From Ignavibacteriota bacterium (lineage in GTDB: Bacteria; Bacteroidota; Ignavibacteria; Kapaibacteriales; UBA2268), in assembly GCA_024636855.1 (NCBI GenBank), contig JAGXGG010000083.1, forward strand, positions 1 through 36,983: DNA of 36,983 nucleotides, given 5' to 3'. Positions 18,729 through 33,298 of this stretch are shown piece after piece; within the stretch, counting starts at the first letter, position 1, and each line of letters begins with the position of its first letter. The position numbers and the translations under genes are program-made. The notes under the pieces were generated by a model that was not told the DNA's origin, ran no database searches, and saw nothing but the letters and a program-made list of their open reading frames with translations.

Positions 18729-19349
18729 TTATTTAGATAATTCTTGATTCACAGTAGAAATAAAACTTTCCTCATGAGGGTATATTCTCTTTACGACTAT
18801 GCCTTCTTTATTTATCAAATACCCGTTAGGAGTACCGAAAATTGAATAGTTTTTGAAAATTGAAGTTTCCTTTGTCTCACCGTCATAAATATTAATCCAG
18901 TCATTCATCTCATAATCATCTATAAATTGTGCAGTTTGCTCTAGAGATACATTTTCTGTAATATTAGAAGTAACAGTAATTACAATAAAATCTTCATTAT
19001 TAATAGTATTATATTTTTCTACTAAGAAGGGAATACTAATTCGGCAATTCGAACAATTGTTTCTCCAAAACTTAATATAAACTACTTTGCCTCTTAAATC
19101 CGAAAGTGACCATTCATTTTCTTGACCTTGATTGATTGTAAAATCGGGAGCAATGTCACCTACATTCAATAGCTCACCCGAATATTCACCTGTGTTAATT
19201 GGGTTCGAGTATAGTCCAGGACTAACATCTTTCGGTACAACTACTTTGCCATCATCATTTTTAGTCGAAGGTTCAGACGCATTATTCTTGCATGATACTA
19301 TTATCAAAGACATGCAAAGTACTATTAGTATATTTTTCATTTTATTCAT
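18729..19349 (-). CDS. TlpA-like thioredoxin-fold lipoprotein (copy 1)
   Basis: This is a 206-residue lipoprotein with a lipobox ending at C20 (LIIVSC) and a thioredoxin/AhpC-like domain. The redox motif is C99-S-N-C102 in KFWRNNCSNCR, preceded by the typical GDIAPDFTINQG and SLSDLRGKVVYIKFW. It should act as a periplasmic thiol reductase or similar redox partner, fed by DsbD-type reductant by family analogy. The neighbouring gene at 19356-19979 is a close paralogue in the same order and strand, 6 bases upstream, so this is a tandem duplication. The variant CSNC versus CNFC active sites suggest different redox potentials or clients. Confidence 0.85.
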   Translation of the reverse strand: MNKMKNILIVLCMSLIIVSCKNNASEPSTKNDDGKVVVPKDVSPGLYSNPINTGEYSGELLNVGDIAPDFTINQGQENEWSLSDLRGKVVYIKFWRNNCSNCRISIPFLVEKYNTINNEDFIVITVTSNITENVSLEQTAQFIDDYEMNDWINIYDGETKETSIFKNYSIFGTPNGYLINKEGIVVKRIYPHEESFISTVNQELSK

Positions 19350-19355
19350 GTTGAT

Positions 19356-19979
19356 TTATTTGGCTAATTCGTTATTTATAACTTCTTCAAAATTAGAACT
19401 TTTGGGATGAAGTGAACTTACTACTTTGCCATCTTTGCCTATCAAATAACTAGTAGGGGTACCTTTTATACTATAATGATTGGCAATCGATGAAGATAAA
19501 GTGTTGCCATCATATATATTGATCCATTCGTCCATTCCAAATTTTTCTAAAAAATCCTTTACACTAGATTGAGAAACATTAAGTGATCTATCAGTAGTAA
19601 TAGTTATTACAATGAAATCATCATTGTCTATATTATTATAGCTGCTCACAAGAGAAGGAATAGACTCTACACAGAAGTTACATCCAGTTCTCCAAAACTC
19701 TAAGAAGACAACTTTACCACGTAAATCAGACAAAGAAAATTCGTTATCTCCATTCTCATTTATTAGAAAGTCAGGAGGAAAATCGCCAGGTCTTAAATAA
19801 GAATCTGAGGATTGCCCCAATACTCTGATATTAGAGTATAATCCGGAGGCTACTTGAATATCTTCATATACTTTCTTTGGTGTTTCTTCTTCAGGGACTA
19901 CAGTATTGTCCTTAGTACAGGATACTAAAAATATTGATATAAATATTGATATAAATATTGTTATTAAAGCACTTTTCAT
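19356..19979 (-). CDS. TlpA-like thioredoxin-fold lipoprotein (copy 2)
   Basis: The 207-residue paralogue of the downstream gene shares the GLYSN motif, the P-x-DF strand and the SLSDLRGKVV segment. It has the active site C100-N-F-C103 in EFWRTGCNFC. The signal peptide ends in FLVSC, with the lipidated Cys at 21. The hydrophobic core reads as a repeated Ile-Phe-Ile-Ser unit because the DNA there is a 12-base tandem repeat. It is the first gene of the pair and is divergent from mscS. Like copy 1 it is predicted to be an envelope thiol-disulphide oxidoreductase; the substrate is unknown. Confidence 0.85.
   Translation of the reverse strand: MKSALITIFISIFISIFLVSCTKDNTVVPEEETPKKVYEDIQVASGLYSNIRVLGQSSDSYLRPGDFPPDFLINENGDNEFSLSDLRGKVVFLEFWRTGCNFCVESIPSLVSSYNNIDNDDFIVITITTDRSLNVSQSSVKDFLEKFGMDEWINIYDGNTLSSSIANHYSIKGTPTSYLIGKDGKVVSSLHPKSSNFEEVINNELAK
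19929..19960. repeat. 12-base tandem repeat inside a signal peptide
   Basis: The unit AAATATTGATAT occurs twice exactly (19929-19940, 19941-19952), followed by a partial third copy (19953-19960). It encodes the repeated IFIS unit of the copy 2 TlpA-like signal peptide. Because the unit is a multiple of three, gain or loss of a copy would lengthen or shorten the hydrophobic core by four residues without a frameshift. Confidence 0.85.
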
Positions 19980-20922: not shown

Positions 20923-22755
20923 TTGATAAACGAAAGAATTTTTTCAGATGAAAGCACCAGCGGAAGCTTGATGCAAAGAGATAAAATCGAAGATAAGTAC
21001 AAATGGAATCTCAAGGATATATACGAAACTGAAGACCTATGGGACGAGGATTTCAATTATATCAAAACTAAAATAGAAGAATACAAAAGTTACGAAGGGA
21101 CAATCGGCAAGTCAGCTGATTCCTTATTGGCTATGTTACAATTCGATGAAGAAATCGGGATTAAATATGACCGACTACACTTATACTCATTTCTAGCAAA
21201 AGACTTAGATTTGGCTGATACTAAGTATCAATCAATGGCTGGGCGATTGCAAGACCTCGGCTCTAAGCTAGGTAGTGCAGGCTCATTCATCAGACCAGAA
21301 TTGATAGAGATTGGCAAAGAGAAAATCGCACAATATCTCTCTGAGAAAGAAGAACTAGCTCACTACACTCATTATTTTGACAATATGTTCCGTACGGCAG
21401 AGCATTCTCTAGATAAGGATAAAGAAGAAATCCTATCAATGACTGTACAAATGCGACAAACTGCATATCAGACATTCAGCTATTTCAAAAACGCCGATAT
21501 AAAATATCCGACTACGAAAGATAGCGATGGGAACGATGTTGAGATTAGCGATGGTAGATATTACTCTGCCCTATTCAACAAAGATAGAGCTTACAGAGAA
21601 AGAGTTTACAAAGGGTATTATGCACCAATGATTGAACATAGAAATATGCTTTCTTCACTGTTCAATGGTAGCATACATGCTAATATCTTCACTGCAAAAG
21701 TCAGAAAATTCAAATCAACTAGAGAAGCTGCATTAAAACCGAATAATATTCCTTTGGAAGTGTACGACAATCTAGTGAAAGCTGTGAATGACAACCTAGC
21801 ACCATTGCACAGATGGGCGGCAATCAAGAAAAGAGTGTTGGGAGTTGATAAGCTGCATCCTTATGATAGTTATGTTTCTATCTTCGATTCGGATGATACT
21901 AAGTATAGCTATGACGAAGGAGTCAAGATAGTTAGAGAGTCACTTTTACCACTAGGTGAAGAGTATTTGACTGCACTTGATAAGGCATTCGATAATCGCT
22001 GGATAGATGTATATGAGACCAAAGGGAAGCGTGGCGGTGCATATTCATCGGGTACAAGTTATGGAGTTCATCCCTATGTACTTCTGAATTGGAATCATCA
22101 GATGAATGATGTATCAACTCTTACACACGAGATGGGGCATAATATGCACTCTTATTTCACAGAGAAATACCAACCTTATGTATATGCAGATTATCCTATA
22201 TTCTTAGCAGAAGTTGCTTCTATCACGAACGAAGCAATGCTAATGGATTATCTGATAGCAAATAGCAAAAGCAAATTAGAGAAGCTGAACCTAATAGAAA
22301 TGTATTTGAACAAAATAGTAACTACATTCTACAGACAAACTAGATTCGCTGAATACGAGCAGCTTGTACACGAAAAAACTGAAGCTGGCGAATCGCTAAC
22401 TCCTGATGATTTGTGTAAACTATACTCAGAAATGTATCAGAAGTATTGGGGTCCAGATATGGAAGTCGATGACGAAGAATCTTACACTTGGGCAAGAGTA
22501 CCACACTTCTATTATGGCTTTTATGTATTCCAATACGCAACTGGATTAGCTGCGGCTGAGCTAGTAGCAAAGAATGTGAAAGACAAAGGCCAAGAAGGAG
22601 TTGATAGTTTAATGCAATTCCTGAAAGCTGGAAAGTCTAAATATGCGATTGATGTACTGAAAGATGCTGGGGTAGATATGACTAAACCAGAGCCAGTAAA
22701 AGCAGTAATCGATACTATGAATAGATTATTAGATGAGTTAGAGGCGGAGCTGTAA
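20923..22755 (+). CDS. pepF: Oligoendopeptidase F (M3B family zinc peptidase)
   Basis: This is a 610-residue cytoplasmic zinc peptidase that degrades oligopeptides. The zinc-binding HEMGH lies at residues 402-406 in STLTHEMGHNMH, with the third ligand expected in the following FLAEVASITNEAM segment. The N-terminal part (KYKWNLKDIYETEDLWDEDF) and the VHPYVLLNW approach to the active site match PepF. The start is TTG 20923, with AGGA about 8 bases upstream. ATG 20971 (residue 17) is an alternative that would give the more usual family N-terminus. The 3' flank of this gene is duplicated further downstream. Confidence 0.93.
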   Translation: MINERIFSDESTSGSLMQRDKIEDKYKWNLKDIYETEDLWDEDFNYIKTKIEEYKSYEGTIGKSADSLLAMLQFDEEIGIKYDRLHLYSFLAKDLDLADTKYQSMAGRLQDLGSKLGSAGSFIRPELIEIGKEKIAQYLSEKEELAHYTHYFDNMFRTAEHSLDKDKEEILSMTVQMRQTAYQTFSYFKNADIKYPTTKDSDGNDVEISDGRYYSALFNKDRAYRERVYKGYYAPMIEHRNMLSSLFNGSIHANIFTAKVRKFKSTREAALKPNNIPLEVYDNLVKAVNDNLAPLHRWAAIKKRVLGVDKLHPYDSYVSIFDSDDTKYSYDEGVKIVRESLLPLGEEYLTALDKAFDNRWIDVYETKGKRGGAYSSGTSYGVHPYVLLNWNHQMNDVSTLTHEMGHNMHSYFTEKYQPYVYADYPIFLAEVASITNEAMLMDYLIANSKSKLEKLNLIEMYLNKIVTTFYRQTRFAEYEQLVHEKTEAGESLTPDDLCKLYSEMYQKYWGPDMEVDDEESYTWARVPHFYYGFYVFQYATGLAAAELVAKNVKDKGQEGVDSLMQFLKAGKSKYAIDVLKDAGVDMTKPEPVKAVIDTMNRLLDELEAEL

Positions 22756-22796
22756 GGTTTTGAATAAAGATAATTAATTATTAAGTTGAAAATCTA
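22751..22796. repeat. pepF 3'-flank direct repeat, copy 1
   Basis: The segment covers the pepF stop codon and the bases that follow. It matches 23069-23115 with three substitutions and one single-base indel. It marks the left border of the first unit in the pepF-rnhB intergenic stack. Confidence 0.85.
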
Positions 22797-22807
22797 GTAT
22801 AAATAAG

Positions 22808-23017
22808 ATGAATGAAATAATGAAAGAGAAGAAGCAAATAATAAAAGGTACGTTATTATCACTAATATCAACAATAATACTATTAGTAATCTTCTATATC
22901 TCAGATAATGTTAATATTGATTTTGTTGTAATAAGTATAAGTGCACTCTATTTTATCGCAATGTCTATCATTTTTTCCAAAAAAATTATAAAAAAGGAAA
23001 GACAGCTAGGAAGTTAA
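22808..23017 (+). CDS. Small two-TM membrane protein (unit 1)
   Basis: The 69-residue hypothetical protein has a basic N-terminus (MKEKKQIIK), two hydrophobic segments (about residues 14-30 and 36-56) and a basic C-terminus (KKIIKKERQLGS). It is related to both halves of the 124-residue product encoded next to it. The shared pattern is a SLISTIILLVI first segment and a YFIAMSIIF second segment. Its stop TAA (23015-23017) overlaps, on the other strand, the stop of a relic of the rnhB 3' end. I know no function; a holin- or toxin-like role cannot be inferred from two TM segments alone. Confidence 0.6.
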   Translation: MNEIMKEKKQIIKGTLLSLISTIILLVIFYISDNVNIDFVVISISALYFIAMSIIFSKKIIKKERQLGS

Positions 23018-23049
23018 TCAAATAACTCTACTTCTTTATTATCAAACTT
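23014..23049 (-). pseudogene. rnhB 3'-end relic 1
   Basis: Read on the minus strand this encodes KFDNKEVELFD followed by TAA, resembling the C-terminus KFDNREEGLF of the intact RNase HII gene downstream. Over 30 aligned bases 23 match the real rnhB end. Its stop overlaps the stop of the 69-residue membrane-protein gene by two bases. The homology fades upstream, so only the very end is preserved. Confidence 0.6.
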
Positions 23050-23068
23050 ATTGATTTAAAAGCGTAAT

Positions 23069-23115
23069 TGTAAGATTTTGAATAAAGATAAATTAATTAT
23101 TAAGTTGCGAATCTA
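23069..23115. repeat. pepF 3'-flank direct repeat, copy 2
   Basis: This copy of the sequence that follows the real pepF stop shows only three substitutions and one inserted A relative to 22751-22796. It sits immediately upstream of the 124-residue membrane-protein gene, as copy 1 does for the 69-residue gene. A weaker echo (TTTGAATAAAGA) recurs at 23638-23649 before the third unit. Confidence 0.85.
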
Positions 23116-23138
23116 ATTTATATAAAAAAAGTGATGTT

Positions 23139-23513
23139 ATGAAAAACCGTAAAAAAATATTGAAATCAATTTTAATTTCATTAGTCTCTACTATTTTACT
23201 TTTTGTTATATTAAATTTCAAGAATGAAGAATTCGCCAACCCCCTAAATATTAGTATTTTCACACTCTTCTTTGTGGCTATGTCGTATGGGTGGTATAAA
23301 CAAGATACTATTATGAATAGTAAGAAGTTAAAATTAAGTGCTATTGGATACTCTATTATTTCAACTATCCTTTTATTATATATAATCTCAAACCACTTTC
23401 AAAGAAACATCAATAATCTATCCGAATTAGGAATAGTAACTATATATTTTATATTTATGTCTATAGTTTTTTATATATCTTTTAAGAAAAAGCAAGAAAG
23501 ATTGACTCATTAG
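23139..23513 (+). CDS. Small four-TM membrane protein, internally duplicated (unit 2)
   Basis: The 124-residue hypothetical protein is built of two copies of the two-TM unit seen once in the 69-residue neighbour. Residues about 5-55 contain SILISLVSTILLFVIL and FTLFFVAMS. Residues about 65-120 contain YSIISTILLLYII and VTIYFIFMSIVFYIS. Both ends are basic (MKNRKKILK and KKKQERL). Its stop TAG (23511-23513) overlaps the stop of a second rnhB 3' relic on the minus strand, the same geometry as unit 1. The function is unknown; it is likely an inner-membrane protein. Confidence 0.6.
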   Translation: MKNRKKILKSILISLVSTILLFVILNFKNEEFANPLNISIFTLFFVAMSYGWYKQDTIMNSKKLKLSAIGYSIISTILLLYIISNHFQRNINNLSELGIVTIYFIFMSIVFYISFKKKQERLTH

Positions 23514-23610
23514 CCAAACAACCCCTCTTTCCTATTATCAAACTTAATAAGAAAACTATTTCGATGAATCCGGCACTTACCGGATTTTTTTATGGCTGCG
23601 AAGCGGGATT
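23510..23610 (-). pseudogene. rnhB 3'-end relic 2
   Basis: Bases 23516-23610 match 24422-24516, the 3' part of the intact rnhB gene, at 88 of 95 positions with no gaps. Read on the minus strand the relic still encodes FAAIKKSGKCRIHRNS, then FLIKFDNRKEGLFG and a stop. Almost all differences are synonymous, and the clear change is E to K near the end. That pattern suggests the segment was once part of a working rnhB before being left behind by insertion or replacement. Confidence 0.85.
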
Positions 23611-23708
23611 AGATTAAAATAAATAAAAAATAGCCAGTTTGAATAAAGAAATAAGGTAAAATTTTCTTAAATTGGTTATATATAAACGTTAGCTACAAGT
23701 GAAACAGA

Positions 23709-24227
23709 ATGAACATAGATGAACTTGCCATAAAAGAACAGAACCTTTATTCAATTGTGATAAAACTTGAAGGCACGATTGAAGAAAAGTCTGATAAAGT
23801 TGTCTATTTTGGAATTACAAAAGAGTATCGAGAAATTCATCAGGAATATTCAAGATTAGCAAAAAGTGACTTAGAAGCACTGAAGAGAGCATTGTTCCTT
23901 ATGTGGTATTCAAAATCTGAAACCGATTGGTTAACGGGAGTTGGAGTACTTGATGAGGAATCTGAAGAAAGTATTGTCGAAATTCTTGATAGAAGACTTA
24001 AACGAGGCATAACTGACAATGAACTCGATTGGATGTTAGATTACTATTCGGGTTGGGATTACATGTTTGAGCGATTCGGTGATTTTAAAAACTTTCAAAA
24101 CAGATTAAAAAGTAAATCGAAAACTGAATTGCCTGATGAAATTGACAGAATGAAAATGGAGCAAAGAGGCCAGATGGGAAGATATTGGAATTCACTGACA
24201 AGATTTAATAAAGAAACTAGTAGCTAA
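23709..24227 (+). CDS. Hypothetical protein in a cassette-like element
   Basis: I do not recognise this 172-residue soluble protein. It has no signal peptide and no membrane segment. It is rich in Glu, Lys and Trp/Tyr, largely helical in appearance, with a distinctive aromatic stretch ELDWMLDYYSGWDYMFERFGDF around residues 102-123 and a charged tail. The start ATG 23709 lies 20 bases after the proposed cassette boundary and has no clear Shine-Dalgarno site, which is typical of cassette genes. Codon choice (GAACTTGCC, GAACAGAACC) looks unlike the adjoining AT-biased genes. The stop codon is embedded in the downstream core site TAGCTAAC. Functions of such cassette genes are usually unknown. Confidence 0.65.
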   Translation: MNIDELAIKEQNLYSIVIKLEGTIEEKSDKVVYFGITKEYREIHQEYSRLAKSDLEALKRALFLMWYSKSETDWLTGVGVLDEESEESIVEILDRRLKRGITDNELDWMLDYYSGWDYMFERFGDFKNFQNRLKSKSKTELPDEIDRMKMEQRGQMGRYWNSLTRFNKETSS

Positions 24228-24416
24228 CACTCTATATAGCAAATAGGGCGTTCGGTGGATTACGAAAGTTCAGTGATATTTACAAACACCTCCAAATCGT
24301 TGATTTGGTTTTAAAGAATGAATAAAATAATAACAAAATACAACGCTTTGGCTCTGTGCAAACTTGAAAGTTTATTGCTTTCTACTGCCCTACTTGCTAT
24401 ATACTAATCGTTTAAT
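24222..24416 (+). other. Candidate attC-like recombination site
   Basis: The left core AGCTAAC overlaps the stop of the cassette gene. TATATAGCAAATAGGG (24233-24248) pairs with CCCTACTTGCTATATA (24388-24403) with one mismatch, forming the base of a long stem-loop, and a right core begins at GTT 24410. Inside it, CCAAATC-GTT-GATTTGG (24292-24308) is a perfect 7-base-pair hairpin followed by four T. At 195 bases it is longer than typical attC sites. An ordinary 3' structure or terminator is the alternative. Confidence 0.4.
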
Positions 24417-24418
24417 TA

Positions 24419-25045
24419 CTAAAACAACCCCTCTTCCCTATTATCAAATTTGATAAGAAAACTATTACGATGAATCCGGCACTTGCCGGATTTTTTTATG
24501 GCTGCAAAGTGGGATTTAGTGCCATAGCCCTTGTGTTTATCAAATCCATATTCGGGAAATTCAGCGTGATATTCTTTCATCAATCTGTCCCTAGTCACTT
24601 TCGCTATTATGGAAGCGGCAGCAATAGAGAAAGACTTTGAGTCACCTTTCACTATTGTTTGGAATGATTTGTATTTTGTTGATTTGAATCGGTTACCGTC
24701 TATTAATAGCATATTGGGCTGAGTAGATAGTTTACTGACTGATAGCTCCATTGCTAGATATGTAGCATTCAGTATGTTGATTTCATCAATTTTTGCTTCA
24801 TCAACTATCCCAATTCCATAAGATATTCTTTCGTCTGAGGTGATTAAATGATACAGCTCATTTCTTATCTTTTCAGTTAATTTCTTGGAATCCGTCAGCT
24901 TTGGGATTTCAAATTGTTCGTGGAATATAACAGCGGCAGCCACTACTGGCCCAGCTAATGGCCCTCTACCAGCTTCATCTGCACCAGCTATAATGGGGTA
25001 TTTTTTTATAAGTGAGTTTTCGTAGTCGAAGTTTGGGGTGGTCAT
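24419..25045 (-). CDS. rnhB: Ribonuclease HII
   Basis: RNase HII removes ribonucleotides embedded in DNA and RNA primers. The 208-residue protein is full length. It carries the catalytic Asp-Glu pair in GADEAGRGPLAGPV (D23-E24), the LLIDGNRFK strand with a catalytic Asp, and the SIIAKVTRDRLM and YGFDKHKGYGTKSH segments that complete the active site. The C-terminus KFDNREEGLF is the intact version of two upstream relics. It lies downstream of the multicopper oxidase gene on the same strand, 52 bases away, but its function is unrelated to the copper island. Confidence 0.96.
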   Translation of the reverse strand: MTTPNFDYENSLIKKYPIIAGADEAGRGPLAGPVVAAAVIFHEQFEIPKLTDSKKLTEKIRNELYHLITSDERISYGIGIVDEAKIDEINILNATYLAMELSVSKLSTQPNMLLIDGNRFKSTKYKSFQTIVKGDSKSFSIAAASIIAKVTRDRLMKEYHAEFPEYGFDKHKGYGTKSHFAAIKKSGKCRIHRNSFLIKFDNREEGLF

Positions 25046-25097: not shown

Positions 25098-27350
25098 TCA
25101 ATAATTAATAGTAATACCCAAACCTAAATTCATATCACTATCATAATGTGCTGACAAGCCAATATTTCGGGTTATGATATACTTTAATCCAGCCATATAT
25201 TCTTTATCAGTATTTATCATAAATGCCATCCTCATTCGGGCAGTTAGTGGGATGTCTTCTCTCATTAGTTGCAATCTTACCTTTCCATCATGGAAGGCTT
25301 CAGCTTGAAGAATTAATAGCATCGGCAAAGTGTATTCGGCACCTAAACTAAACGCGACTCTTTTGTCTTTCGTACTTGTTTGACCAAATATATTTTTTTC
25401 TGATTCACCATCTGTCTTTCGATACCTAGCATCAACTCCAATAAAAGGCATAAACCATTGCATTTGGCCTATGTATCTACCAAAATGAGTTTCCAATTCA
25501 TATCCATGATGATCGTTATATCCAAGTCGCCATTCAGTGCCTAAACTCCATCTAGTATTTTGATACATTAACATACCATCATTACCATTGGAAGCAAAAT
25601 CGTTTTGTGCCATAAAGTGGAATTCCTGGTCATCTGATCTAACCTTATCATAAGCTGCTTCTTTGTCTGGTAATTGCGGGTTAGGGGGTGAATTTTCATA
25701 AGAGAAAACCCTACCCATACCACTCATCATGTGATAGAGAATATGGCAATGAAAGAACCAATCTCCATATTCTTCAGAAGCCAAAAATTCAATTGTATCC
25801 CTTTCCATAGGCATTATATCTAAAACATTTTTCAAAGGTGCGTAATCACCTCTTCCGTTAAGCACTCTAAAATAATGACCATGTAAGTGCATTGGGTGTC
25901 GCATCATAGTATTATTGTATAATATTATCCTAAGAACTTCCCCTGCATTTATTAATATCTTATCGGTTTCAGACAGAGTTTTATTATTTATACTCCACAC
26001 ATATCTGTTCATATTCCCAGTCAATTCAAATTCTAATGTTTTGATTTTGGAATCTTTCGGGTAATCAGTCTTTGTGGGTGATTTTAGCATTGTGTAATTA
26101 AGCGTTACTATACTTTTTTCCTCTTCCATCTTATGATTTGGATGATCCATTTCTTTTGAATCCATATTCATCTTTTTACTTTTCTTTTTAATTTCAGGAT
26201 ACATTACTCTATTCATATCCATCTTTTGCAATTCCATATTCATTCCCATATCGTCCATACTGCCATCCATATTCATCATATTATTCATCATTTTCATCCC
26301 TTCAAAATATTTCAGTCTTGGGAGTGGAGTTTGTGCTACTAATTCCCCTTCTCCAATATTCAATATTGCAGAACCAATTCTATCCTCAGATGTTGCCATA
26401 AACTGATATTTTTTCCCATCCTCTGGAATCGTAATTACAACGTCATAAGTCTCTGATACACCAATTATTAACCTGTCAACTTCTACAGGTTCTACATCTG
26501 CTCCATCATTTGCAATAACTGTTAGTTTACCACCAGAATAGTTTAACCAAAAATAAGTTGACGCACTCCCATTTGCTATACGCAATCTGACTTTGTCACC
26601 TGCTTTGAAATTAGAATTGTTTAGCTCTGGAAGATTAATTTCATTCTTCCCATTGATAAGAAATTTTTCATAATAGACATCACTGACATCCATCGCTAAC
26701 ATTCTCTTCCACTCATTTTCAATTTTTGTCCAGAAATGCCCTTCTACTAAAGCCTCTCCGTAGCTTTGAACTGTCCCTTTTTCTATTGCAAACCAATCAT
26801 TTGCATTATGTAGGTATCTATCCACTGTACTTGGATTCATATTTGTCCAGTCACTAAGTAATACATTATAACTTGCTAACTCATCTAATTGTCTAAATGT
26901 TGGGTCATCTTTCTTTTTGTTTATAGTCAAGGAACCATACATTCCAATCTGCTCTTGGAGACCTGTATGAGAGTGATACCAATAAGTACCACTTTGTTTT
27001 AGTCTAAATGCAAATATATGTACTGTATTGGGCTCTATCGGTGCTGTAGTTAGATTAGGTACGCCGTCTTGTTCATTTGGGACTAATAATCCATGCCAAT
27101 GGAATGAGGTCGATTCGTCAAGCAAATTGTGAACTCTAATTATCACACTATCTCCATCAGTAAATGTTAAGGTAGGCATAGGGATTTGACCATTTATAGA
27201 TATGGCTCTTGTTTCTTCACCTGCAAAATTGACAATTGTATCTCTAACAAATAAATCATATTCGACTATATTTATTTCTTTTGCTATTGATTCGGTTAAT
27301 GAGAGGATTAGAATCATTAAATAAGTAATTAAAATTTTATTCTTTTTCAT
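25098..27350 (-). CDS. Multicopper oxidase (CopA/PcoA-type) fused to a CopB-like outer-membrane barrel domain
   Basis: This exported 750-residue oxidase probably converts Cu(I) to less toxic Cu(II). All four copper-ligand motifs are intact: FHWHG (H84, H86), WYHSHTG (H126, H128), HPMHLHGHYF, and HCHILYHMMSGM with the type 1 ligands. A Met-rich insert around residues 350-415 holds about 17 Met in some 60 residues, as in copper-tolerance oxidases. The last ~170 residues (QNTRWSLGTEWRLGYNDHHG onward) look like a CopB-type barrel of alternating strands ending in LGLGITINY. I set the start at ATG 27350, where the signal peptide MKKNKILITYLMILILSL begins. It overlaps the upstream HMA gene by 14 bases. 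Confidence 0.88.
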   Translation of the reverse strand: MKKNKILITYLMILILSLTESIAKEINIVEYDLFVRDTIVNFAGEETRAISINGQIPMPTLTFTDGDSVIIRVHNLLDESTSFHWHGLLVPNEQDGVPNLTTAPIEPNTVHIFAFRLKQSGTYWYHSHTGLQEQIGMYGSLTINKKKDDPTFRQLDELASYNVLLSDWTNMNPSTVDRYLHNANDWFAIEKGTVQSYGEALVEGHFWTKIENEWKRMLAMDVSDVYYEKFLINGKNEINLPELNNSNFKAGDKVRLRIANGSASTYFWLNYSGGKLTVIANDGADVEPVEVDRLIIGVSETYDVVITIPEDGKKYQFMATSEDRIGSAILNIGEGELVAQTPLPRLKYFEGMKMMNNMMNMDGSMDDMGMNMELQKMDMNRVMYPEIKKKSKKMNMDSKEMDHPNHKMEEEKSIVTLNYTMLKSPTKTDYPKDSKIKTLEFELTGNMNRYVWSINNKTLSETDKILINAGEVLRIILYNNTMMRHPMHLHGHYFRVLNGRGDYAPLKNVLDIMPMERDTIEFLASEEYGDWFFHCHILYHMMSGMGRVFSYENSPPNPQLPDKEAAYDKVRSDDQEFHFMAQNDFASNGNDGMLMYQNTRWSLGTEWRLGYNDHHGYELETHFGRYIGQMQWFMPFIGVDARYRKTDGESEKNIFGQTSTKDKRVAFSLGAEYTLPMLLILQAEAFHDGKVRLQLMREDIPLTARMRMAFMINTDKEYMAGLKYIITRNIGLSAHYDSDMNLGLGITINY

Positions 27351-27573
27351 TATGTATTTCTTCCTTAATTTCATTTGCATTATATCCTGCACTATTCACT
27401 ATTTTCGCTATTTCTTCAGAGGTCATTTCCTCCGATTTTACTGTAAGTATCTTATCAGGTGAGTTTAAATCAACTTCCCAATTAATTATTTTAGATTCTT
27501 TATCAAGTATTGGTTTCACATTTGAAACACAACCCATACAATTTATATTTGTATTAAATTTTAACTCTTTCAT
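27337..27573 (-). CDS. Heavy-metal-associated (HMA) copper chaperone, copy 2
   Basis: The 78-residue HMA-fold protein has a CxxC metal site in NCMGCVSNV and the usual beta-alpha-beta-beta-alpha-beta order, ending in AKIVNSAGYNANEIKEE. It is CopZ-like and likely hands Cu(I) to CopA or buffers it; there is no signal peptide. A clear AGGAG precedes the ATG. Its 3' 138 bases are identical to those of the other HMA gene at 28760-28987, while the metal-site half differs. It overlaps the multicopper oxidase gene, so the two should be translated together. Confidence 0.88.
   Translation of the reverse strand: MKELKFNTNINCMGCVSNVKPILDKESKIINWEVDLNSPDKILTVKSEEMTSEEIAKIVNSAGYNANEIKEEIHNEKE
27372..27509. 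repeat. 138-base identical block shared by the two HMA genes (copy A)
   Basis: This block matches 28786-28923 at every position. It covers the C-terminal two thirds of the HMA coding sequence. Outside it, in the metal-site half, 8 of the next 64 bases differ. The sharp boundary suggests gene conversion or recent partial duplication. Confidence 0.9.
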
Positions 27574-27619
27574 CTTAGTATCTCCTAATTTGTTTTATAG
27601 TGTAACTTATCTGATTTTT

Positions 27620-28075
27620 TTAATATGAACTTAATAATTTATCTAAATAAATCAGAATATCTTTTTTATCTTTTTCTGTAAGAGAAGCGTCCCAATGCAA
27701 TAACGTATAACTAGAAAGTGGCATTTCATCATCCTTAATTTGACTAATCATTGATTTCAGTTTACTTTTCTTTCTTCTATCTGAGTATGCACCAAATTCA
27801 CTCAAATTTAGCTTATCTTTGCCTTCAACTATATGCTGACTCATTAACATATTCATTGGTTGCAATTTACCGTACCAAGGATAAATTGTATTATTGCTAT
27901 GACAATCGTAACAAGAGGTCTTTAGTTGTGTGATAATTCCTTTCGGAACATCGTAGATAGTAATAAAATCATTTGAAATTTTAACTGGTTGTTTATTACT
28001 TACAGTGGGAATAAACTGAATTCCCACTATAAATATTATGATTATTATTGTACCTGTTTTTATTGTTTTCTTCAT
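27620..28075 (-). CDS. Haem-binding-domain protein (CxxCH, Haem_bd type)
   Basis: The 151-residue protein has an N-terminal membrane anchor or signal (about residues 5-23) and a cytochrome-like C55-Y-D-C58-H59 motif in SCYDCHSNNTIYPWYG. The downstream DEMPLSSYTLLHWDASLTEKDKKDI segment is typical of the small Haem_bd family. It probably sits in the periplasm facing the copper-handling proteins. Its ATG overlaps the TGA of the upstream DUF3347 gene (ATGA), so both are co-translated. Similar genes recur beside copper and silver resistance clusters in this superphylum; their electron partner is not known to me. Confidence 0.75.
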   Translation of the reverse strand: MKKTIKTGTIIIIIFIVGIQFIPTVSNKQPVKISNDFITIYDVPKGIITQLKTSCYDCHSNNTIYPWYGKLQPMNMLMSQHIVEGKDKLNLSEFGAYSDRRKKSKLKSMISQIKDDEMPLSSYTLLHWDASLTEKDKKDILIYLDKLLSSY

Positions 28076-28695
28076 TTTATAGTGGAAATAATACTACCAC
28101 ATTTCGGCATATTACTTCCATAGAATGGATTATTTATTTCCTTTGATTCACTAATCCATTTGCCGCCTTTGCCATCATTATACATTGGACATTTATCAAC
28201 AAACAAAGTTCGGTCTGTGCCTAATAATTTAATTAGATCAACAATGTCAGTAGATAAAATTTCGAAATGTTCTCTTTGATGATCAATATTGTCAGCATTT
28301 TCACCTATATGTTCGGCATGTTCCATAGCATCTTCTACTATATCATTATACTCTTTCATTTTGGATTTTTCTATTTTTGATTTATCCAAATTCTTAAAAG
28401 AATCATATAACATTTTTGCAGCTGTTGCAGCTGTTTTGCTATTATCTTGGAATAATGAATTTTTAATTTGCAGATAATTATCTATTATAGCAGTAAGAAT
28501 CGAATTTTTTGCAACATTATTCTTAATACCCTTATCCATACTACTCTCTTCAACTTTACTGTTGTGCTCGTGTTCGTGGTTATCTTCTGACATTGAACTT
28601 GAATTGTGATGATCCTCAGAGTGTGATTCTTTTTCAGAATTACATGACATCAGTAGTAATGACACAACTGCGATTGAAATAATTGATTTTAGCAT
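28072..28695 (-). CDS. DUF3347-type periplasmic metal-binding lipoprotein
   Basis: This is a 207-residue lipoprotein with a lipobox at LLMSC (C18). A His/Glu/Asp-rich stretch with several His (residues about 22-50, EDHHNSSS and EHEHNSK) is well suited to binding Cu. A DUF3347-like helical domain (NSILTAIIDNYLQIKNSLFQDN onward) follows. The C-terminal CPMYNDGKGGKWIS to NMPKCGSI segment is the same motif found at the end of CusB-like metal-efflux adaptors. It likely holds copper in the periplasm for handover or efflux. It is translationally coupled to the haem-binding-domain gene. Confidence 0.82.
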   Translation of the reverse strand: MLKSIISIAVVSLLLMSCNSEKESHSEDHHNSSSMSEDNHEHEHNSKVEESSMDKGIKNNVAKNSILTAIIDNYLQIKNSLFQDNSKTAATAAKMLYDSFKNLDKSKIEKSKMKEYNDIVEDAMEHAEHIGENADNIDHQREHFEILSTDIVDLIKLLGTDRTLFVDKCPMYNDGKGGKWISESKEINNPFYGSNMPKCGSIISTIK

Positions 28696-28759
28696 AATAA
28701 TACCTTTTTTGAATAAATAAATATGTTTTAAATTAAATAAACGAATATGAATGTTTAAA

Positions 28760-28987
28760 CTAATGATTGTTATTTTCTTTGATTACATTTGCATTATATC
28801 CTGCACTATTCACTATTTTCGCTATTTCTTCAGAGGTCATTTCCTCCGATTTTACTGTAAGTATCTTATCAGGTGAGTTTAAATCAACTTCCCAATTAAT
28901 TATTTTAGATTCTTTATCAAGTAAAGGTTTTACACTTGACACACATCCCATACATTTTATGTTTGTATTAAATTTTAACTCTTTCAT
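28760..28987 (-). CDS. Heavy-metal-associated (HMA) copper chaperone, copy 1
   Basis: This 75-residue paralogue of the HMA gene at 27337 keeps the CxxC site in KCMGCVSSV and an almost identical remainder. It is a CopZ-like copper carrier expected in the cytoplasm, where it can serve the CopA ATPase encoded just upstream (28 bases away). AAGGAG precedes the ATG. The two copies differ mostly around the metal site and at the C-terminal tail (VIKENNNH versus EIKEEIHNEKE). Confidence 0.88.
   Translation of the reverse strand: MKELKFNTNIKCMGCVSSVKPLLDKESKIINWEVDLNSPDKILTVKSEEMTSEEIAKIVNSAGYNANVIKENNNH
28786..28923. repeat. 138-base identical block shared by the two HMA genes (copy B)
   Basis: Direct-repeat partner of 27372-27509 with no differences. 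The two blocks are about 1.4 kb apart and in the same orientation, so recombination between them could delete the DUF3347 and haem-binding-domain genes. Confidence 0.9.
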
Positions 28988-29015
28988 CTTTAAATCTCCT
29001 TTATATTATTTGTTA

Positions 29016-31265
29016 TTAAATATTAATATTTCTTAATCTTAAACTGTTTGCTACAACTGATACTGAGCTTAGTGCCATAGCTGCCCCTGCTATCATAGGG
29101 TCTAATAAAAATCCATTTATGGGATATAGCAATCCCGCCGCAATTGGGACACCTAGAACGTTATAAATAAACGCCCAAAAAAGATTTTGTTTTATTCCTT
29201 TTACTGTTTTTTTAGAAAGTTCTAATGCTTTTGGAATAGAGCTTAGATCTGAAGTAATCAAAGTTATTTTAGCAACATCCATGGCTATATCTGAACCGTG
29301 ACCCATAGCAATACTAACGTCCGATTGTGCTAATGCTTGAGAGTCATTTATACCATCCCCTACCATTGCTACTATTTTACCATTAGCCTGAAGTTCTTCT
29401 ATAAATTCTGCTTTTTCTTGAGGAAGTACCTCACCTTTATAGTAAGTTAGATCAAGCTGGGATGCAACGGCTTGTGCTGTTGATTTACTATCTCCAGTTA
29501 ACATATAAACATCAATACCAGAATCTCTTAATTTTTTTATCGAATTAATAGACGAATCTTTGATTTTATCTGATATTGCTATTATAGCTAACACCTTATT
29601 CTCATCTGTAAAATATGTTACTGTCTTTGCTTCTTGTTGCCAATTACTGGTTAATTGTTGCTGGTTTTCATCTATTTCTACCCCTATCTCTTCAAGTAAT
29701 TTTTTATTACCAACATAGTAATTCATTTTGTCATTATAAGATCCGAATGCACCTTTACCTGTAATGCTATTAAAATCTGTTAATGTTGTTGGTATGATTC
29801 CATCTTCTTTTAGATGTCTAACAATTGATAAAGCTAATGGATGTTCTGAGTTTGATTCTAGTGATAAGAGAATTCTTCTTTCCATCAATGATTCACTATC
29901 TATAAACCATTCAATATCAGTGACAGACGGTTTCCCTTGAGTGATTGTCCCAGTTTTATCTAAAACTACAGCATTGACATTCTGTGCTAATTCTAAGCTC
30001 TCAGCATCTTTAATAAGTATATTATTCTCAGCACCTTTACCAATCCCTACCATAATCGCAGTTGGAGTTGCTAATCCTAAGGCACATGGACAAGCAATAA
30101 CAAGAACGGCAATGGATGATAACAGAGCATGTGATATATAATCCATACCACCAAATATAATCCAGACAAAGAATGTAACAATAGAAGCTAATATTACAAT
30201 TGGCACAAAGATAGAAGCGATTTTATCGACTAATTTTTGAACAGGTGCTTTGCTACCTTGAGCCTGTTGTACCAATTTAACAATTTGAGCGAGGAAAGTA
30301 TCTTCTCCTACTTTTTCAGAAATAAATTGGAAACTACCTTTTTGATTTAAAGTTCCTGCATATACTTTCTCCGATTCTTTTTTCTCAACGGGAATAGGCT
30401 CCCCAGTTATCATGCTCTCGTCTACAAACGATAGTCCTGATACAACTGTACCATCTACAGGAATTCTTTCCCCAGGTTTCACTACTATACGTTGACCAAT
30501 TTTTACTTCTGATATTGCTACTTCTTTTTCAACTCCATCTATAATCAAATTTAAAGTTTTGGGCTGCAATCCAACTAATTTTCGAATTGCTGTTGTTGTG
30601 TTTGATTTAGCCTTTTCTTCTAATAATTTCCCTAATGTTATAAAGGTAATTATAACAGTTGCTGCTTCATAATAAACGTGTGGGTGGATACCATAAGAAA
30701 TCCAGAATTCGGGATAAATAGTATTAAATAAACTATATAGAAATGCAGTTCCTGTACTCATCGCAACTAAAGTATCCATATTAGCTTTCTTATACTTCAA
30801 TTGTTTCCAAGCATTTATAAAGTAGCTACGTCCAAAATAGAATAATATAGGTAATGAAATAAACAATGAAATCCATTTGCCTAATTCCCAATCCATAAAG
30901 AACATACCTATAACGACTATCGGTAGGGCAAGAATTATAGACCAAATGGTTCTAAGCTTTATCTCTTGGTAATATTCATTTACTATATTTTCATTGGAGG
31001 TATTATGGTTTGACTGATCTATTATTAGTTCATAGCCTATGCTTTTTACAGCTTCCTCAAGCGATTCTAATTCTATATCTTCTTTATATTCTACAAGTAC
31101 ACTATTAGTAGAAAAATTAACATTTGCACTTACAACACCTTCAACATAAGATAACATCGACTCTACACTTGAAGCACATGAAGCACAAGTCATTCCCTTA
31201 ACTGGGAATATCCTTTTTACAGTTTTTGAACCACTTAATGGTTCATTAATTATTGATGTATTCAT
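29016..31265 (-). CDS. copA: Copper-exporting P-type ATPase
   Basis: This 749-residue P1B ATPase pumps Cu(I) out of the cytoplasm. One N-terminal HMA domain carries GMTCASC (C27, C30). The actuator segment includes MITGEP. The transmembrane copper site is C392-P-C394 in [13 protein letters not shown], the phosphorylation motif is D436-KTGT, the nucleotide domain includes the SEHPLA segment, and the hinge is [10 protein letters not shown]. All catalytic motifs are present. An AraC-type regulator with an HMA sensor lies directly upstream, and the chaperone gene follows 28 bases downstream, a typical copper-export arrangement. Confidence 0.95.
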
Positions 31266-31296
31266 AATTTTTTAAACTCTGAAGTTAATGATGGTA

Positions 31297-31304
31297 CAAA
31301 ATTA
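31297..31304 (-). promoter_or_regulatory. Bacteroidota-type -7 element before copA
   Basis: On the minus strand TAATTTTG matches the TAnnTTTG consensus of the Bacteroidota primary sigma factor and lies 31 bases before the copA start. No convincing -33 element at the right spacing is visible, so it could depend on the AraC-type activator encoded upstream. Confidence 0.35.
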
Positions 31305-31361
31305 ATTTGAAGTACAATCAATTTTATTACAGAATTATGTAAAAATTCTATAAAATTATGA

Positions 31362-31922
31362 CTAAATTTTATCTATTAGCTTTAATTGCGGATTGTGTGT
31401 GCCTCTGAATTCAGTGACAGTCATGCCTGTTTCTTTCTTGAATAAAGATGAGAGATAAGATACATTGCTGAAGTTGAGTTGGTAAGCTATATCAGACAAT
31501 GATAATTCTTGATAGAATATTAGTTCTTTAACTTTTTCTATTTTTTGTGATGTAATAAACTTCTCTATAGTGATACCCTCGACAGATGAGAATAATCTAC
31601 TTAGATAAGAATAATCATGATTGAGTTTTTGGGAAATGAGAGTCGAAAAATTTGTTTCCAATGGTTCGTTAGAATGATGTATCTGTTCGATAATAATTGA
31701 TTTGATTTCTGATACGACTTTAGATAATTTGTTTTCCAGCAATTCGAATCCAAGTAATTTTAATTTTTCCTCAAGTATATCCTTAATAGAACTTTTTAAT
31801 TCTTTTTTTAAATAGACCTGACCTAATTTAACATTTAGATATTCGATTCCTAATTCATTCAAGATGTTTTCTATAGCAAGAATACATCTAGCACAAACCA
31901 TATTTTTAATATGTAGGATCAT
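31362..31922 (-). CDS. AraC-family regulator with N-terminal HMA-like metal-sensing domain
   Basis: The protein begins with an HMA-like module. MILHIKNMVCARC carries a CxxC pair (C10, C13), and the following GIEYLNVKLGQVYLK and LEEKLKLLGFELLENK elements fit the beta-alpha order. Its C-terminal half has the two helix-turn-helix units of AraC (HDYSYLSRLFSSVEG, then LSLSDIAYQLNFSNVSYLSSLFKKETGMTVTEFR). Such HMA-AraC fusions occur beside copper genes in Bacteroidota. It probably senses copper directly and activates copA and the rest of the island. I prefer ATG 31922 over TTG 31934, which would overlap the upstream stop. It is transcribed together with the exported CPPC protein. Confidence 0.82.
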   Translation of the reverse strand: MILHIKNMVCARCILAIENILNELGIEYLNVKLGQVYLKKELKSSIKDILEEKLKLLGFELLENKLSKVVSEIKSIIIEQIHHSNEPLETNFSTLISQKLNHDYSYLSRLFSSVEGITIEKFITSQKIEKVKELIFYQELSLSDIAYQLNFSNVSYLSSLFKKETGMTVTEFRGTHNPQLKLIDKI

Positions 31923-31930
31923 TTCCGAGT

Positions 31931-33298
31931 TCAATTGTTACTTAGCTCAATTTTATAAATATTCTGTTCTTCAGTTAATATTTCAATAATTGTAGATTTA
32001 TCATCTGAATCTATTCTTAATATGCTCAAATAATTATCATTATTTAAGATATTATTATTGATGTATAATTTATCAAATGTTACTTCAGTATTAAAATTAT
32101 AATTATTTAAAATTATTTCATTTTCTATAAGCTTAACTTCTGTTATACAATCAGGTAAGAATGAATTTGCAATATGTTGATAAGATCTATTGAGTCTTTT
32201 GTCTAATTTTTCAATTACGAATGTCTTTTTATCAATTAAAACGGTGCTATCATTATTCATAGCAATGATATAATTATCTAATTCAATAAGTTCCCGATAT
32301 TCATCAAATCTCACACCTTCTTTTATTATATTATTATTTTCTAACTGATTAATTACAAAGTTTTTATGGTTTGAATAAAAATAGAGATTAGCACTATCCA
32401 AAGGGAAAATATTTTGAAGATAATGTAATTCTGATTTTACTGGTTCTCTATTTTCAACATTATATACAAAACTAGATTCAACAAGAATATTGATTTTTTG
32501 AGGATTTGAGTCCTCTTTATAATCATGTTTTAAATGAGTATATAGTTTATAAATAACAAAAGGCTTTTGATCTTTAACAAAAAATGATCTAATGCCATAA
32601 AATTGACTAAGGATATCTAGAACTCCATTAAAGGAATCACTGGAATCAATATCGCCATTAGCCCAAGTATAAGGCAATTTCTCTTTATTTACTCTTCTAT
32701 AGTAGCTTTCTAATGAATCTATCTTCAAATCCACTAACAATGCTTTATTGGTTCTATTATTATAAGTATATACTTTTTGATTAAAAACGTCGAAAAATAT
32801 AGAGTTAGTCTCGTCAATTCTTAAGAGATTTTTTACTGAAAAAATCAAATTGTCGTCATTCTCTAATTTTATATTTTCTATTTTCAGTTGTGCTTCTGCA
32901 TGTTTTACAATGAGGCGAGAGTCGAGTAACTGATGTAGATTATATTTAAAAAGTAAACCATCTTTTTTAATTAGATAAAAAGAACTCACTTCTGATGAAT
33001 CCTTATTTAACATCATTTCTACTTTGTTCTTAAATAAGTCTTTATATTTCAAATAATCAAATTTTTTCTCTACTACAAGAAAAGTATTATAGTTAATGTT
33101 TTTCCTTTTTAGTTCATCTGTTGTACTATTGATGATTGATGCTAAGCAAGGTGGACACTTGTATGAACTGATAAGGAAGTAAACCCCATCATCTTTTTCT
33201 TTAAACTCATTTACTATTTGCTCTTCTGTTGAGCTTGCTACAGTGATTGAAATTATAAACAGAAGTAATTGAACTAACAAAACATACTTTTTTTTCAT
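31931..33298 (-). CDS. Exported protein of unknown function with thioredoxin-like CPPC motif
   Basis: I do not recognise the family of this 455-residue protein. It has a signal peptide (about residues 1-22). An N-terminal thioredoxin-like region holds the redox pair C48-P-P-C51 in FLISSYKCPPCLAS. A long C-terminal part has regular short beta strands (LLRIDETNSIFFDV, VYTYNNRTNKALLVDL, LDNYIIAMNNDSTVLID), suggesting a propeller-like fold. It lies immediately upstream of the HMA-AraC gene and is probably co-transcribed with it, so it may take part in copper or thiol stress at the envelope. This is contextual only. Confidence 0.65.
   Translation of the reverse strand: MKKKYVLLVQLLLFIISITVASSTEEQIVNEFKEKDDGVYFLISSYKCPPCLASIINSTTDELKRKNINYNTFLVVEKKFDYLKYKDLFKNKVEMMLNKDSSEVSSFYLIKKDGLLFKYNLHQLLDSRLIVKHAEAQLKIENIKLENDDNLIFSVKNLLRIDETNSIFFDVFNQKVYTYNNRTNKALLVDLKIDSLESYYRRVNKEKLPYTWANGDIDSSDSFNGVLDILSQFYGIRSFFVKDQKPFVIYKLYTHLKHDYKEDSNPQKINILVESSFVYNVENREPVKSELHYLQNIFPLDSANLYFYSNHKNFVINQLENNNIIKEGVRFDEYRELIELDNYIIAMNNDSTVLIDKKTFVIEKLDKRLNRSYQHIANSFLPDCITEVKLIENEIILNNYNFNTEVTFDKLYINNNILNNDNYLSILRIDSDDKSTIIEILTEEQNIYKIELSNN

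Follow-up and report, generated by a model that had tools for sequence, protein, structure and literature searches.

How does an interval between two conserved genes come to hold three successive ends of one of them? The question is raised by a stretch of 36,983 bases (the window), an entire contig (JAGXGG010000083.1) of the 3.1 Mb, 110-contig genome of an Ignavibacteriota bacterium (assembly GCA_024636855.1). Here pepF, for a pepF-type M3 peptidase (oligopeptidase F; plus strand, 20923-22755; Pfam Peptidase_M3 1.4e-70, Oligopeptidase F domain 8.4e-18), and rnhB, for ribonuclease HII (minus strand, 24419-25045; Pfam RNase_HII 8.5e-43), converge on an interval that begins after the pepF stop at 22755. 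Between them stands a stack of three units, pepF-A-T1 / pepF'-B-T2 / C-rnhB, in which A, B, and C are genes of 69, 124, and 172 amino acids (aa), and T1 and T2 are relics of the rnhB 3' end. Read from left to right, the order is A, T1, a second pepF flank (F2), B, T2, an attI-like sequence (M), C, and rnhB. The explanation that we favor, with a probability of roughly 0.55, is serial additive capture, in which rnhB gives the homology anchor and the opposite end is joined illegitimately, plus one cassette insertion.

Relics of rnhB and the related genes A and B

T1 (37 nucleotides (nt), 23014-23050) and T2 (23510-23610) lie on the minus strand. A repeat finder placed a 37-nt family at 23014, 23510, and 24416, and an ungapped 102-nt pair with 90% identity at 23509-23610 and 24415-24516, and BLAST of the own genome gave 93% identity between T2 and rnhB over 95 nt. 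No third comparable copy of the rnhB tail was found in the 3.1 Mb, the other BLAST matches being at most 34 nt long with E above 0.1. T1 is identical to T2 at 28 of 37 positions and to the gene at 27 of 37. In unit 1, the TAA of gene A (23015-23017) overlaps the TTA of T1 (23014-23016) by two bases on opposite strands, and in unit 2 the TAG of gene B (23511-23513) overlaps the TTA of T2 (23510-23512) in the same way. An earlier note, made from the letters of the window, had described these successive rnhB 3' ends, the high identity of the longer relic, and both stop overlaps, and all of them were recovered here.

The same note held that the differences in the relics are nearly all synonymous and that the copies were not made in place recently. 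For T2, most differences are indeed synonymous (five of seven over 93 aligned coding nt, compared with the local rnhB), with a probability of 0.003 to 0.011 for at least five under unconstrained mutation; random mutation of the tail reached the synonymous count observed between T2 and the rnhB of a relative, G043, in 1.3-3.4% of trials. T1, in contrast, has several amino acid changes as judged by eye, its translation being KFDNKEVELFD-stop where the gene has KFDNREEGLF-stop. In the T2 stretch, the synonymous divergence (pS) is 0.22-0.27 between T2 and each of four rnhB genes of the genus and 0.05-0.15 among the four genes themselves, a small comparison of about 18 synonymous sites. T2 is farther from all four genes than these are from one another and is therefore not a recent local copy, as the note had supposed. 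From this pattern, T2 seems to have gained most of its differences while it was still a coding sequence, and it lies outside the sampled diversity; this speaks for import, or for an rnhB that was replaced long ago, and names no donor. T1 lies farther from rnhB than T2 does and has changed more, and the truncated tails are most likely ordered by age toward pepF, as an anchor with an illegitimate join predicts.

Because the genome is assembled from a metagenome, copies of this kind could in principle be artefacts of assembly, and the contigs of two relatives do break in or near the interval (C11/C54 in G042 and C264/C111 in G043). The copies, however, differ at 7-27% of sites, with no exact shared run above 20 nt (the longest are 20 nt for T2 and the gene, 17 nt for F1 and F2, and 14 nt for T1 and T2), and the open reading frames, hairpins, and cassette ends are intact. 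Misassembly is an unlikely source of copies with such sequences, and we give it very little credence.

The pepF 3' flank of unit 1 (F1, 22756-22807) is followed by gene A (22808-23017), whose protein looks membrane-type by eye. In unit 2, F2 (23050-23138) consists of decayed pepF 3' codons (about 23050-23073; some nine codons with an in-frame stop, by eye) and a copy of the flank, and it precedes gene B (23139-23513), a membrane-type protein with two alike halves. All four of these pieces, F1, A, F2, and B, are on the plus strand. The decay of T1 and F2 is as expected for older, unused pieces. The pepF-end pair at 22734-22773 and 23052-23091 is identical at 33 of 40 positions, so the second copy announced by the earlier note is present but is 83% identical over 40 nt, with a closer core, and not near-identical. 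The relationship between the small genes of the two units stands: A scores 99 against the first half of B, compared with a shuffle mean of 28.5 (p about 0.001, the lowest value possible with 1000 shuffles).

These likenesses are what a local tandem duplication of pepF end, gene, and rnhB end would leave, if units 1 and 2 had arisen from it within a single lineage and then diverged, with only unit 3 being foreign. F1 resembles F2, A is a paralogue of B, and the relatives have different pepF flanks; the T1/F2 junction can be read as the product of a single duplication that broke in the rnhB tail and in the pepF end. Because F2 resembles the flank of its own genome and A and B are paralogues, tandem duplication is still to be taken seriously as the origin of units 1 and 2. 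On the other side, only 96 of 161 aligned nt columns are identical between A and the first half of B, set against 33 of 40 in the flanks, and duplication leaves the distance between T2 and the present rnhB unexplained. We regard this explanation as possible but rather unlikely.

Genes A, B, and C have no family above curated cut-offs in Pfam or NCBIfam and none in PHROGs at E 0.01; sub-threshold Pfam matches of B were to Acyl_transf_3 (1.7e-4) and DUF6442 (3.1e-4). A role of A, B, and C in defence or immunity would be a guess from the company they keep. The start of gene A (22802-22826) shares 25/25 nt with a gene of G043 (L069:1501-1525) and 24/25 nt with a copy in the own genome (L078:1437-1461; CorA-like by eye). 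These matches, on contigs C414 of G043 and C93 of the own genome, were considered as second copies of gene A and rejected, since both lie within a longer, different gene; the likeness may be chance, or a scrap from which the start of A was made.

Related genomes and the hairpin in the rnhB tail

The locus was compared among the own genome and three other metagenome-assembled members of the genus, G041, G042, and G043. Orthologous ends of pepF are present in all three, and the cargo beside pepF and rnhB differs from that of the own genome in all three; the interval is therefore a variable hotspot of gene capture. In G042 and G043, pepF and rnhB lie on separate contig ends, and we infer their adjacency. 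The G041 genes are 18.2 kb apart and enclose three type I restriction-modification subunits, a tyrosine recombinase, a DUF3987 protein, and two members of a 139/156-aa family. In G042, the interval runs across the ends of two contigs (C11/C54) with a 14-nt overlap, a presumed join, and holds DUF5343 and Swt1-type HEPN genes, which PADLOC matches to its candidates PDC-M34A and PDC-M34B. The cargo is defence-type in two genomes, G041 and G042. In G043, a 156-aa gene of the family seen in G041 adjoins rnhB (L074:58-525), and pepF stands on a different contig, at its end (C264/C111), the middle being unseen. This divergent family, which has no Pfam family, forms a tandem pair beside pepF in G041 (L071:17940-18800), the second copy being interrupted by a stop. 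A diverged relative of it occurs on contig C241 of G043, which is not tied to the locus.

Palindromic repeats of the type CCCCTCTTT...AAAGAGGGG follow pepF in the three relatives and not in the own genome (L071:18780-18860, the end of L073, the start of L074, and L075:1050-1110), and they possibly represent a dispersed repeat family. Tandem pepF flanks suspected in G043 were discarded, as the shared stretch looks like this repeat, which also occurs in G041 and G042.

The G041 interval bears on another explanation, namely that a tyrosine recombinase used the rnhB 3' end as its attB, so that the relics would be displaced gene ends (attL/attR). A 407-aa tyrosine recombinase does lie directly beside the rnhB 3' end in G041, and the rnhB tail contains a palindrome. 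Islands that use gene 3' ends have direct core repeats at both ends, yet the G041 island has no exact direct repeat of the rnhB end of at least 12 nt, only one 12-nt inverted match, and BLAST of the rnhB tail listed no second copy on that contig. Further, the relics in the window differ in length, and no recombinase was recognized among the open reading frames of the interval. Integrase attachment at rnhB was accordingly dropped as a candidate and appears improbable.

The palindrome in the rnhB tail is of interest in its own right. In all four genus members, a 9-bp hairpin with a T-run behind it lies in the coding end, on the strand opposite to rnhB and some 55-75 nt from where the gene ends (24472-24493, plus strand, in the window). 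T2 retains eight of the pairs, again followed by a T-run (23566-23587, plus strand), and T1 is too short to hold the hairpin. The hairpins have energies of -14.0 and -10.4 kcal/mol. A consensus terminator scan gave three terminator-like sites in the region, two of them these hairpins, compared with 0.9 (standard deviation 1.0) in shuffles. The perfect hairpin was found in none of 12 readable rnhB tails from other genera (26 loci given). Within the genus, the synonymous divergence of rnhB is 0.05-0.15 in the last 102 nt and 0.17-0.42 elsewhere in the gene. Taken together, the low synonymous divergence and the hairpin suggest selection for a putative terminator serving the convergent variable interval, and the hairpin may be the reason why the tail of rnhB is conserved. 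This hairpin and the cassette anatomy of unit 3 are additions to the earlier note.

The attI-like sequence and cassette C

Gene C (open reading frame 23709-24227) is, by its ends and fold, an integron-type cassette (plus strand, 23688-24412), as far as sequence can tell. It is bounded by GTTAGCTAC (23688-23696) and GTAGCTAAC (24220-24228), which are exact reverse complements over 9 nt and form cognate R'/R'' ends at G/TT; GTAGCTAAC is followed by the attC-like arms TATATAGCAAATAGGGC and GCCCTACTTGCTATATA (24233-24249 and 24387-24403) with a terminal GTT. The cognate ends gave a shuffle p of 0.0004, and one of 200 shuffles was as good over 1.5 kb. The attC-like strand folds with a z of -4.0, none of 200 shuffles being as stable, and the site is long, about 190 nt.

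Directly before the cassette lies M (plus strand, 23625-23690), which recurs at other loci of the genus: on C17 in G041, on C46 (twice) and C69 in G042, and on C80 in the own genome. The copies form a repeat of about 75 bp before small genes, with the likeness ending at or near GTT (L070:1476-1548; L068:1466-1529 and 2094-2163; L088; L077, from C80); the crossover position reads GTT in four of six copies, TTT in C69, and GTA in C80. Some of the genes downstream end in attC-like sites, the clearest by eye being near L068:2550-2600. Four of the six M sites have, downstream of them, a cognate end that contains one mismatch or none, and no such end was found within about 1.5 kb of the other two. 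The cognate end is exact at three sites, where 0 to 1 of 200 shuffles were as good, although in one of these (C46a) it is only 26 nt away and could be a plain hairpin; the C80 end has one mismatch, and nine of 200 shuffles were as good. Judging by these sequences, the recurring copies resemble attI-like docking sites dispersed in the genus.

The six sites were used to build a model of M, which they match by construction; it gave strong matches in three of 54 genomes of the family, all from this genus, and borderline matches in three genomes of two other genera. A weak match in G043 was judged by eye not to be such a site. The stretch before C (F3) had been considered as a third pepF-flank copy, which did not hold up: its scores against F1 and F2 do not clearly exceed those of shuffles (p 0.15 and 0.10), and the sequence that it does match is M (p 0.002, the lowest value possible with 500 shuffles).

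In a search for an integron integrase, none of the 54 family genomes passed the TIGR02249 cut-off, with pieces scored apart, a procedure by which 0 of 14 controls passed. A 279-aa tyrosine recombinase occurs in G042 (C56, L108:1213-2052) and G043 (C120, L109:1477-2316) beside the same 291-aa gene; its matches to the integron-integrase model omit the middle (about 180-231), and the best matches listed for the own genome and G041 score lower. Gene C, the one of the three genes that was scanned, had no match in PADLOC, and it had none on plasmids at E 1e-5. Among 395 sampled genomes of the phylum, it matched two, its own and that of a 47% identical relative, which by eye lies outside any cassette.

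Outside the interval, the window holds a copper-type block at 25098-33298 between rnhB and a folE-like gene (multicopper oxidase, P-type ATPase, and heavy-metal-domain regulator, named by eye). In G042, rnhB directly follows the folE-like gene, so that the other side of rnhB is also variable. Upstream of pepF, at 18729-19979, stand two adjoining related genes that by eye resemble thioredoxin-fold lipoproteins.

Proposed serial capture and known systems

The earlier note had proposed repeated capture of alternative intervals by homologous recombination at rnhB. Variable cargo and a T2 that is not recent agree with repeated capture, but pure homologous recombination would replace units where the locus has stacked them, and this requires an illegitimate end in each join. 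In the mechanism that we favor, DNA from related cells with an alternative interval would pair with the resident rnhB, the homologous anchor, and the incoming pepF-side end would be joined illegitimately inside or beside the old rnhB tail. The new unit would be added between the old unit and rnhB and would not replace the former; each event would leave the previous rnhB tail behind and shift older units toward pepF. At least one addition, probably two, would have given A-T1 and then B-T2. For unit 3, the attI-like sequence would have arrived beside rnhB, and cassette C would have inserted into it at G/TT. The rnhB tail could double as terminator of the interval, an arriving unit with its own tail being a self-contained and tolerated module.

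Several observations weigh against this mechanism. The resemblance of F2 to its own F1, and not to the pepF flanks of the three relatives, fits a local tandem duplication at least as well. No relative has an rnhB clearly closer to T2 than the local gene is: over the 93 coding nt, T2 differs at six positions from G043, seven from the local gene, seven from G041, and eight from G042, which is no real difference. No incongruent segment emerged within the present rnhB, T1 is too short for dating, and the microhomology at the junctions, at most about 3 nt by eye, is uninformative. No donor and no single-unit version with A or B, of the kind that the earlier note had expected in relatives, was found in the DNA of the genus (nothing beyond stretches of at most 26 nt; A was not searched separately as protein) or, for B, among the 395 phylum genomes, where B matched its own genome and, weakly, one other (E 1.1e-4). 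For the cassette, the attC-like site of C80, a comparison for this reading, folds no better than chance (z 0.17; 111 of 200 shuffles as stable).

One-sided homology, as supposed here, has been described in three naturally competent species and in E. coli conjugation, in the portion of PMC3240628 used here. A close likeness is to the immunity-gene arrays of the type VI secretion system in Vibrio cholerae, for which sequential displacement by a homology anchor and an illegitimate join has been proposed (PMC5361080, in part). As in those arrays, small genes are stacked, and the 3' ends of displaced genes are left behind; T1 and T2 separate successive units in this manner. Unlike the arrays, as that part describes them, the locus has no recognized effector or secretion gene, its anchor is a housekeeping gene convergent on the cargo, an immunity role of its cargo is conjectural, and complete single units did not turn up in other genomes (of the 395, B matched its own and one other weakly).

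An interval between two conserved genes that holds other whole genes from one genome to the next, as found here in the own genome and all three relatives (G041 and G043 sharing a small gene family), also characterizes the minimal mobile elements of Neisseria, according to the sections of PMC3082526 drawn on. By comparison with these, the units here are stacked and not exchanged, homologous recombination is presumed, and the compared genomes are different species. No recombination breakpoint was identified, and a gradient along pepF was inconsistent, with a mild rise toward the 3' end between the own genome and G043 and none between the own genome and G041. In the literature on this bacterial group, "minimal mobile element" was absent among the matches listed; the pepF-rnhB pair was not searched by name. 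The changing set of accessory, partly defence-type genes that the two conserved genes enclose likewise resembles that of the integrase-poor, core-gene-flanked hotspots of PMC5635113; in contrast to what the relevant text of that source describes, fossil gene tails here record additive events. With its cognate G/TT ends and attC-like fold, gene C is like integron cassettes, including the integrase-less attC clusters treated in the available part of PMC9668308, from which it differs in that only one cassette is present, at an attI-like sequence of dispersed occurrence, and no integrase lies beside it.

A further idea, which we hold only tentatively and consider doubtful, is that the convergent rnhB end is itself the capture tool: with a genus-specific terminator in its last 100 nt, the tail would give both entry homology and insulation, modules would accrete without a dedicated recombinase, and scattered attI-like sites would feed cassettes. 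A terminator in the coding end of a neighbor would be a testable reason for the retention of scraps and for the tolerance of accessory, partly defence-type turnover. Usual capture hotspots show their present cargo only, whereas here scraps of the flanking genes record the order of events, so that additive capture can in principle be distinguished from replacement. Compared with these systems, the locus looks like a new and unusually readable case of a known kind of accessory-gene collection, in which the record and the tail hairpin are the interesting parts.

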